A stretch of DNA of 64,000 nt from Eubacterium limosum (GTDB lineage: Bacteria; Bacillota; Clostridia; Eubacteriales; Eubacteriaceae), in assembly GCF_000807675.2 (NCBI RefSeq), contig NZ_CP019962.1, positions 3,879,157 to 3,943,156 on the forward strand, written 5' to 3'. The notes below the pieces were generated by a model. It ran no database searches. It had not been told where the DNA came from and saw nothing but the letters and a program-made list of their open reading frames with translations. Shown here in pieces: positions 9,203-51,389 of the stretch. A program made the position numbers and the translations under genes. Numbering within the stretch: position 1 is the first letter of the stretch; every line of letters begins with the position of its first letter.

Positions 9203-9229
9203 CAGGATACGTCGAAACGGCGTATCCTG
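9203..9229. repeat. TACGTCG-core palindrome, left bracket of element copy A
   Basis: CAGGATACGTCG-AAA-CGGCGTATCCTG forms a 12-bp stem with one mismatch and an AAA loop. It begins two bases after the permease stop. Bases 9206-9229 are repeated at 9467-9490 with one difference. The core is shared with palindromes at 16891, 27885 and 33068. Confidence 0.85.
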
Positions 9230-9466
9230 AGCGGGTCAAAAAACCTGAGAGACGAAGCCTTTTACCTAAGGAAGGAAAAAGCGTCCTGCGGGCACTGCCT
9301 ACTCATCTGTATCTTTTTCATGAATGTTGATACCTGATCTCGTCAATGTCCGGCTGTTCCGGTAAAGCAGTTTGATTCCTGACCGTTTACCACAGCGCCT
9401 GGATCTTTTTTCTTATCTGGATAAAAGGCGCAGTCTCGGGTTGCTCCACTTCTTTGACAGACTGAC
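9230..9466 (+). mobile_element. Terminator-bracketed interspersed element, copy A (MITE-like)
   Basis: This 237-bp non-coding segment recurs at 36263-36493 (same orientation) and at 51136-51366 (inverted). The ends are imperfect inverted repeats over about 50-60 bp. Starting at 9235 the left end reads GTCAAAAAACC...GAGACGAAGCCTTTTA; the right end, inverted from 9458, reads GTCAAAGAAG...GAGACTGCGCCTTTTA. The right half, which includes TTTTTTCTTATCTGGATAAA, is the best conserved part. No transposase or plausible ORF lies inside. It is bracketed by near-identical 24-bp palindromes. I infer a non-autonomous mobile element. Confidence 0.75.
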
Positions 9467-9490
9467 GATACGTCGAAACGACGTATCCTG
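9467..9490. repeat. TACGTCG-core palindrome, right bracket of element copy A
   Basis: GATACGTCG-AAA-CGACGTATC is a perfect 9-bp inverted repeat. Together with the next three bases it repeats 9206-9229 in direct orientation with a single mismatch (A for G). I interpret the pair as a target-site duplication made when copy A inserted. Confidence 0.8.
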
Positions 9491-35987: not shown

Positions 35988-36037
35988 ATACAAGCACTCA
36001 GGAAATGAGTCGCCGCTCAGAAAAAAAAGAGCGCTGT

Positions 36038-36123
36038 GCGAGAGTGTTGGAATTGGCAGACAAGCACGTTTCAGAGGCGTGTGTGCTACGCACGTACGGG
36101 TTCGACTCCCGTTTCTCGCACCA
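36038..36123 (+). tRNA. tRNA-Leu, anticodon CAG
   Basis: An 86-nt class II tRNA with acceptor GCGAGAG paired near the 3' end, anticodon stem CACGT/GCGTG with loop TTCAGAG (anticodon CAG, reading CUG), variable arm TGTGCTACGCAC and T arm ACGGGTTCGACTCCCGT. CCA is encoded. Confidence 0.95.
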
Positions 36124-36139
36124 TTTAATTGGTGACAAG

Positions 36140-36168
36140 GCAGATGTTAAAATAACATCTGCTTTTTT
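36140..36168 (+). terminator. tRNA-Leu terminator
   Basis: GCAGATGTTA / TAACATCTGC is followed by a T-run, 16 bp after the encoded CCA. Confidence 0.9.
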
Positions 36169-36239
36169 ATTTTTTGCCACCCCAATCGCCACTCTAGCCG
36201 CCGCCTTTCCTTGTCGCCAGATTTTTACATATAAAAAAA

Positions 36240-36262
36240 GGAGAATTTTTCATTCTCCATTA
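36240..36262. repeat. 23-bp hairpin direct repeat, left bracket of element copy B
   Basis: The 23 bp contain the hairpin GGAGAAT-TTTTC-ATTCTCC and are identical to 36494-36516. On the minus strand this copy is followed by seven U residues, so it still looks like the complete original terminator of the gene at 36514-36891. Confidence 0.88.
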
Positions 36263-36493
36263 CCGTGTGTCAAAAAACCTCAAGAGACGAAGCCTTTTAT
36301 CTAAGGAAGAAAAAAGCGTCCTGCGGCCACTGCTTTTACACACACTTCTTATTAGGTAAGGCAAATACCTGATCGCTCCAGTGTCCGGCTCTTCCGATAA
36401 AGTGGCATGATTCCTGGCCGTTTACCGTGGCGCCTGGACCTTTTTTCTTATCTGGATAAAAGGCGCAGTCTCAGACTACGCCACTTTTTTAAT
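36263..36493 (+). mobile_element. Terminator-bracketed interspersed element, copy B (MITE-like)
   Basis: This 231-bp non-coding segment has the same orientation as copy A and is the inverse of copy C. The left end has TGTCAAAAAACC from 36268 and the right end has CACTTTTTTAAT; the terminal TTTGACA seen in the other copies has decayed here. About 45 bp at each end form an imperfect inverted repeat (GCCTTTTAT...AAGAAAAAAG on both). It sits between exact 23-bp direct repeats of a terminator hairpin. Confidence 0.8.
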
Positions 36494-36516
36494 GGAGAAT
36501 TTTTCATTCTCCATTA
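36494..36516. repeat. 23-bp hairpin direct repeat, right bracket of element copy B
   Basis: It is identical to 36240-36262 and here extends to the palindrome AATGGAGAAT-TTTTC-ATTCTCCATT. It overlaps the stop codon of the next gene (36514). This copy lacks the following U-run, as expected if an element was inserted between hairpin and U-run. Confidence 0.88.
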
Positions 36517-36891
36517 TTTAAAGTCTTTTCCCAGCGCTTCACTGAGCAGTACGCAAAAATCTTCCCAGCTTTCAGGATATGCCGCGGTGCCTCCCAGTCT
36601 TTTCTCAGAATCTTCAAAAACCAACGTCATCTCCCAGATTGGGCCGTCCAGACAGCTCAGATCATAATATTTTTTCTTCCACTGCAGTACGCCAGCTTCC
36701 GCCATCCCTTTTTTAAAGGCGTCCAGCGCCTCGGTATCCAGTGTTTTTAAATACTTGGGGGGTTGATAAAAAAGCGCACTGGCAGACCAGCATGCCTTAC
36801 CTGTTTCAAAATCAATACAGGCCGCATAGCCATCTCCCACATAGCCGTCGGTGGTCACCTTAAGCTGCCGGATATCATCATAATTTTCCAT
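36514..36891 (-). CDS. Hypothetical protein, 125 aa
   Basis: I do not recognise this family. It is a soluble, slightly acidic protein starting MENYDDIRQLKVTTDGYVGDGYAACIDFETGKACW and ending FCVLLSEALGKDFK, with no signal peptide or metal motif. A coding role is supported by a GGGAGGCGACGATTTT leader with GGGAGG before the ATG and by a tailored terminator at its stop. It is a single gene, divergent from the NusG-II/Gx pair. Confidence 0.7.
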   Translation of the reverse strand: MENYDDIRQLKVTTDGYVGDGYAACIDFETGKACWSASALFYQPPKYLKTLDTEALDAFKKGMAEAGVLQWKKKYYDLSCLDGPIWEMTLVFEDSEKRLGGTAAYPESWEDFCVLLSEALGKDFK

Positions 36892-51112: not shown

Positions 51113-51135
51113 AAAAGGCAGGCAAAAGCCTGCCA
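51113..51135. repeat. 23-bp hairpin direct repeat, left bracket of element copy C
   Basis: The 23 bp hold GGCAGGC-AAAA-GCCTGCC with a preceding A-run and are identical to 51367-51389. On the minus strand this copy runs into six U residues, so it looks like the original distal end of the oleate hydratase terminator. Confidence 0.88.
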
Positions 51136-51366
51136 GAGACTGTCAAAAGTGTCGTAGTCCGAGACTGTGCCTTTTATCCAGATAAGAAAAAAGGTCCAGA
51201 CGCTGTGGATAACGGCCAGGAATCGTGCCACGCTACCGGAACAGCCGGACACTGGAGAGATAAAGCATCAACTTTAGAGAAGAAGTTACTATTGTGAGGG
51301 GAATGCCCGCAGGACACTTTTTTCTTCCTTAGGTAAAAGGCTCCGTCTCTCAGTTTTTTGACACTC
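51136..51366 (-). mobile_element. Terminator-bracketed interspersed element, copy C (MITE-like)
   Basis: At 231 bp it has the same length as copy B, in inverted orientation. Both ends are intact: GAGACTGTCAAAA at 51136 and, inverted from 51366, GAGTGTCAAAAAA. The conserved half (51141 to about 51260) matches copies A and B well; the section from about 51262 to 51307 is unrelated in sequence between copies. It lies between exact 23-bp direct repeats, in the oleate hydratase/transglutaminase intergenic region. No ORF. Confidence 0.82.
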
Positions 51367-51389
51367 AAAAGGCAGGCAAAAGCCTGCCA
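51367..51389. repeat. 23-bp hairpin direct repeat, right bracket of element copy C
   Basis: It is an exact copy of 51113-51135. It lies 26 bp beyond the oleate hydratase stop and retains four U residues after the hairpin on the minus strand, so it may still terminate transcription. Confidence 0.88.

Follow-up and report, generated by a model that had tools for sequence, protein, structure and literature searches.

Results

A hairpin, an element and the same hairpin again

The window, by which we mean the whole stretch of 64,000 nucleotides of Eubacterium limosum DNA that was analysed (genome G000), contains a host gene on the minus strand that adjoins a hairpin, followed by a 231-bp segment and a second, identical copy of the hairpin (Table 1). 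An earlier sequence-only reading had described this arrangement as two exact 23-bp hairpin repeats bounding an ORF-less segment, and it was right in each respect: the 23-mer occurs twice and nowhere else in the window when both strands are checked, each repeat folds as a hairpin, and no ORF of at least 60 aa lies wholly within the segment, into which ORFs of 99 and 86 aa extend. On the minus strand, starting at the host gene, the proximal hairpin runs into the element and the distal one into seven T, in line with the statement that the former had lost its T-run and the latter had kept it. The segment matched the model of a repeated element, named here family A, on the minus strand with an nhmmer E value of 5.2e-65. 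The right end of this copy lies no more than 2 positions from the model end, the left end is short by about 7-9 bp, and the terminal arms (33 nt) are 79% complementary. Because of this truncation on the left, the copy is possibly no longer mobile, and for the same reason it was excluded from the set of full-length copies analysed below. A tRNA-Leu (CAG) gene (36038-36123, plus strand) is located near the element, and a hairpin close to it (36137-36165) could be the terminator of that gene.

Table 1. Position of the window and of the family A copies, their hairpin repeats and associated features within it.
Feature	Position	Strand	Basis or remark
Window	G000:C1:3879157-3943156		genome size 4.42 Mb
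T-run past the distal hairpin (seven T, minus strand)	36233-36239	-	sequence
Target duplication, distal hairpin	36240-36262	-	exact 23-mer
Family A element	36263-36493	-	nhmmer, model match 8-234 of 236
Right inner box, oriented opposite to the left box	36294-36309	+	pattern match G000:C1:3915450-3915465, plus
Left inner box CTTTTATCCAGATAAG, near-invariant among copies	36447-36462	-	pattern match G000:C1:3915603-3915618, minus; alignment
Target duplication, proximal hairpin, no T-run	36494-36516	-	exact 23-mer; single copy in three relatives
Host gene, ORF of 125 aa, adjoins the targeted hairpin	36514-36891	-	
25-bp hairpin repeat, right end of second family A copy	9204-9228	-	
Second family A copy in the window	9229-9464	-	nhmmer
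Hairpin repeat, left end of second family A copy	9465-9489	-	
Hairpin copy left of the third family A copy, 21 bp, same as the right one	51115-51135	+	
Third family A copy in the window	51136-51368	+	nhmmer
Hairpin copy right of the third family A copy	51369-51389	+	

Family A elements

Family A consists of non-autonomous elements of about 235 bp with ends of the form CAG..TGTCAAA and TTTGACA..CTG (CAGnnTGTCAAA and TTTGACAnnCTG), CAGnnTGTCAAA being present at both ends as terminal inverted repeats, and with two near-invariant inner boxes inverted with respect to each other. The full-length copies span 230-240 bp (n = 52). A 301-base query over the locus gave at least 46 matches in this genome (40 of 82 candidates were scored), and among the matches scored the other G000 copies were 73-82% identical to the query. 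The family was present in 4 of the 41 genomes searched, all four belonging to the same genus, and was absent from a fifth genome of that genus, which is 80% complete. When a wider collection of genome contigs was searched with a 26-base element pattern, the nine stretches recovered were all from E. callanderi FD; a 16-mer gave 13 matching stretches in a viral contig collection.

The inner box CTTTTATCCAGATAAG is near-invariant while other parts of the copies diverge, suggesting either that a protein binds there or that the structure requires it. The inner boxes are able to pair, and RNA covariation was weak, with a sequence changed on both sides in 10 of 35 predicted pairs and a covariation term of -0.13. 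Rfam covariance models searched against positions 36000-36700 gave no match up to an E value of 1 except for the neighbouring tRNA. The spacing between the ends is variable in some copies (L263, L271, L273 and L274), as if the interior were replaceable or deletable. A small element with similar ends and a different interior was observed at L075 (G000:C1:485250-485510; also G003:C8:134756-135016), and no hairpin repeat was seen in its flanks in G000.

The flanking repeats follow the hairpin

Flanks were compared for copies having both ends and 90 nt of flanking sequence, 52 after removal of exact duplicates, which came from four genomes (27, 4, 12 and 9 copies) and still include orthologous insertions and array members, not all of them thus being independent. 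Of these 52, 34 carried a locus-specific flanking repeat (score of at least 8); among 416 pairs of mismatched flanks, 4 did. The outcome that had been named as refuting, copies lacking hairpin repeats, was thus seen in part, namely in the remaining 18 full-length copies, in which there was no high-scoring repeat, a diverged hairpin being visible in several of them (L018, L027, L028, L034) and none in others. The target was an inverted repeat, as in IS1182/IS1272-type insertion, in 28 of the 34 repeats, which contain a clear hairpin (score of at least 14; the other 6 have no clear hairpin by that score), and in 27 of these 28 the repeat was centred on the hairpin within 1.5 bp.

The 27 centred repeats measure 20-29 bp (mean 24.4, sd 2.3 bp), a spread so small that length alone is compatible with a fixed ruler. 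Repeat length, in turn, correlated with the length of the G-C core of the hairpin (Spearman 0.65, 27 centred repeats), and the coefficient was 0.80 for 26 distinct centred sites when the hairpins were limited to the repeat. Because such a limitation inflates the correlation, the lengths were permuted as a control, and none of 300 permutations matched the observed value (mean 0.37, maximum 0.78). Given that the duplication tracks both the hairpin's dyad and its length, it is structure, and not sequence or a fixed ruler, that appears to set the joints.

Empty sites in related genomes

At the locus under study, the flank matches in G003, G001 and G002 overlap by 27 bp and there is one hairpin and no element, with flank identities of 98-99%, 88-93% and 82-86%, respectively. 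A further 39 loci were mapped through their left flanks, and orthologous stretches were compared by the distance between flank matches; the resulting 40 loci correspond to 46 copies with arrays merged. Sites were classed as empty when this distance was -40 to 30, and as occupied when any insert of 130-310 bp was present, a class that includes several family B (see below) or chimeric inserts. An insert-free site was found in at least one relative for 32 of the 40 loci and in all three relatives for 11, and the flank matches overlapped in at least one relative for 23; for 8 loci no insert-free site was found in G001-G003. Judged by eye, most of the overlapping sites printed show one hairpin where G000 has hairpin, element and hairpin. 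These comparisons uphold the proposal that a mobile element had inserted at a rho-independent terminator and duplicated its hairpin, and the check suggested with it, a comparison with strains lacking the insertion, gave a single hairpin in each of the three relatives; none of them showed paired hairpins without an element at this locus.

Taken together, family A elements are short, carry no transposase gene, have terminal inverted repeats and are flanked by target duplications for which empty sites exist, and in our judgement they are probably best regarded as MITEs.

Proximal and distal hairpins

A T-run of at least four follows the distal hairpin in 31 of the 52 copies and the proximal one in 2, which is consistent with the idea, also put forward in the sequence-only reading, that the host gene would stay terminated. 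In 30 copies there is an A-run ahead of the proximal hairpin, and many targets thus resemble two-way terminators; 39 copies have at least one of the two features, 22 have both and 13 neither. The asymmetry between T-run and A-run amounts to 9 versus 8 copies, and accordingly no orientation rule is claimed. With the empty site of the relatives as reference (19 sites), differences numbered 110 for the proximal hairpins and 64 for the distal hairpins (Wilcoxon p 0.02). The dyad score weakly favoured the distal copy (p 0.04), and folding energy gave no clear difference between distal and proximal copies (p 0.13). A distal copy that may still be working as a terminator fits both the T-run and the divergence data. 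As to the layout of neighbouring genes, crude ORF calls classed the 40 loci as tandem forward (16), tandem reverse (6), convergent (11), divergent (6) or undecided (1).

A second family and repeated use of the same terminators

A second MITE family, family B, has the ends CAGnnTGTnGACAAAG, similar to those of family A, and internal hairpins (L093, L117 and L091 in G001; L283-L312). Repeats with a score of at least 12 flank 13 of the 21 loci considered in G001 (out of 61 matches, the 9 matches in G000 being left out), against 5 of 420 mismatched pairs, and the seven duplicated, terminator-like hairpins that were measured are 19-32 bp long, one of them being a 32-bp hairpin.

Some terminators are used by both families. 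At L006 and L011, G000 carries family A, and the orthologous terminators of G001 carry family B with hairpin repeats of its own; at the L017 locus, a family B element of G001 occupies the hairpin that is found in G000 to the right of the family A copy. A chimeric insert, with a family A left end and a family B-like interior and right end, was observed in G003 at the L014 locus (L136). The L012 terminator of G003 contains an oppositely oriented copy that is flanked by a hairpin repeat of its own. This copy is 90% identical to L019 versus 86% to L012, and the second hairpin is gone from L012; on the simplest reading this terminator was hit separately twice, an inversion being also possible. At L011, the copies of G000 and G002 are 91% alike, a value equal to that of their flanks, and G003 has one intact hairpin, for which precise loss of the element is the simplest reading.

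Search for a mobilizing transposase

No autonomous element with family A ends was seen among the matches listed for the end patterns and solo ends. In a search of this genome for DDE_Tnp_1 transposases, IS1182 was the only such insertion sequence found (NF033551, 318.8 bits; 498 aa; five copies, L068-L072). Its ends contain TGTCAAAA, as those of the MITEs do, and 5-bp duplications are present at all five sites; for this last reason, the five-copy IS1182 of G000 is not accepted as the parent on present evidence. A search of 11 genomes for IS1182 gave no match in the four other genomes of the same genus that were included, among them the MITE-carrying G001, G002 and G003.

IS1182-type elements of a related genus were also inspected (L195 and L199 in G024, L197 in G006). 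Two copies of 584 aa have inverted flanks of 14 and about 7 bp, as though placed in the middle of a palindrome, and one of the two 536-aa copies compared is located between an A-run and a T-run. These elements look as if a hairpin had been split or replaced.

Discussion

In this work, we analyzed an element that lies between two copies of a hairpin in E. limosum, together with its relatives in the same and in other genomes. The insertion, the duplication of the hairpin, its centring on the dyad, the tracking of its length and the element-free sites in relatives all come from direct comparison of sequences. The fact that a whole hairpin is duplicated suggests that a transposase reads DNA shape and not DNA sequence. 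From this pattern we infer a cruciform, a transposase, a repair step and retained termination, combined in the following model, which we consider probable. The target would be a palindrome, in most cases one resembling an intrinsic terminator, and the transposase would join both ends of the MITE to the 5' feet of the extruded cruciform, two joints that would be distant along the DNA and near each other at the four-way junction. Gap filling would then duplicate the entire stem-loop on either side of the element, such that the hairpin by the left end would lose its T-run and the one beyond the right end would keep it and might still terminate. Finally, deletion between the paired hairpins could recreate the original site. 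More tentatively, and somewhat short of an even chance, an unrecognised transposase might set its stagger by DNA shape, the duplication always being equal to the palindrome, and might serve a complex of two or more MITE families of this genus, for which terminators would be renewable homes of low cost with a scarless exit.

A version of this model, and not an alternative to it, would have as the mover a member of the IS1182 family, which includes insertion sequences that target structures. The IS1182 of G000 is the sole DDE_Tnp_1 element found in the genome, its ends share TGTCAAAA with the MITEs, and inverted flanks are present at some IS1182-type elements of the related genus; in addition, IS1272 targets terminators according to the available text of PMC4923244. 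Since IS1182-type copies can be found between inverted flanks or between an A-run and a T-run, the family stays the leading suspect. Against it stand the 5-bp duplications at five sites in G000 and the lack of a match in the three other MITE-carrying genomes, and we thus see an IS1182-family mover as possible rather than probable.

Different explanations of the duplicated hairpins were also considered. In the first one, the transposase would have a fixed stagger of about 25 bp, such as the long one of IS1202, and would merely prefer palindromic or terminator DNA. Such an enzyme would account for the narrow range of repeat lengths and for the A/T pairing that extends past the repeat at some sites, and it seems unlikely to us in view of the spread of repeat lengths in the two families, of a length-hairpin correlation above all 300 permutations, and of a repeat centre that coincides with the dyad axis in all but one of the clear hairpins. 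In the second one, a structured RNA element would move by an RNA-mediated route at terminators, like group IIC introns, retroelements that insert at terminators as well and for which we know of no such hairpin duplication. The terminator-like targets, the near-invariant inner boxes able to pair and the predicted pairs with changes on both sides speak for this route, whereas the terminal inverted repeats, the symmetric target duplication, an interior that appears replaceable in the copies of variable end spacing, the negative covariation term and the lack of an Rfam match on the element make it quite improbable. As for the hairpins being part of the element, or two unrelated terminators flanking it by chance, terminator hairpins do resemble each other and a similar hairpin (AATGGAGAAT..ATTCTCCATT) flanks the family B copy L302 in G001, but the hairpins vary among loci and match within a locus, and the mismatched flank pairs (4 of 416) together with the single-hairpin, element-free sites of the relatives leave such an origin with hardly any probability and rule out chance similarity of terminators.

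The shape-guided, cruciform-based model has precedents. As a rule, it is transposase geometry that determines the target duplication of a DDE element. Here the duplication follows the length of a secondary structure, and dozens of natural events are thereby on offer for tests of transposition directed by cruciforms, which the IS1272 paper presents as a drawn model as far as its available text goes (PMC5678879). IS1272 and TnSha1, members of the IS1182 family that replace stem-loops, likewise target inverted repeats and hairpins, including those of terminators, and the consulted sections of PMC4923244 describe that part of the hairpin is deleted without duplication; in contrast, family A duplicates the hairpin and is non-autonomous. 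In the portions considered of these two papers, a cruciform model is proposed for IS1272, with inverted-repeat targets of little primary sequence conservation (PMC4923244, PMC5678879), and Fig. 13 of the latter includes, beside the hairpin-replacing pathway proposed for IS1272, a hypothetical branch, pathway b, in which the hairpin is duplicated. This branch is a drawn model with no example in the text considered (PMC5678879). Families A and B look like a natural case of it. Long target duplications of variable length, from 8 to 514 bp, are likewise made by IS1634/IS1549, for which no mechanistic model had been proposed by the time of that report, whose accessible text mentions no terminator or hairpin as target (PMC2266710). 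Bacterial MITEs and small repeats such as BOX, RUP and SPRITE are likewise short, gene-less, bounded by terminal inverted repeats, present in many copies and often located 3' of genes, and duplication of a terminator hairpin is not mentioned in the parts of the reports available to us (PMC10969869, PMC3049150). No report of a hairpin-duplicating bacterial element was recognised in a literature search that covered mostly papers outside subscription. Altogether, structure-targeted transposition is already known, and its hairpin-duplicating outcome over many loci and two families is not recognised in the literature searched. Such an outcome means that a parasite can settle where genes end and copy the terminator hairpin instead of breaking it, and that terminators are recurrent targets for more than one family of elements.

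The divergence among copies deserves a comment with respect to the mode of transposition. At loci common to G000 and G003, identity between the copies is 93-98% in seven cases and 88-90% for L008, values near those of flank identity. Array neighbours aside, the nearest relative of the copies present only in G000 was about 80-90% identical among the copies included in that comparison. Lack of near-identical donors is odd for recent transposition unless the elements move by cut-and-paste from a diverse pool; the gap could reflect a standing diverse pool of this kind, precise loss at a high rate, or copy lists that are incomplete and lack the donors. Lastly, tandem arrays of the element were observed in G000 (L044, L026, L025, L035) and in G002 (L055, L047, L253), and in two of them, L025 and L055, adjacent units have one hairpin in common, as would be expected if a hairpin produced by one duplication had served as target for a further insertion.
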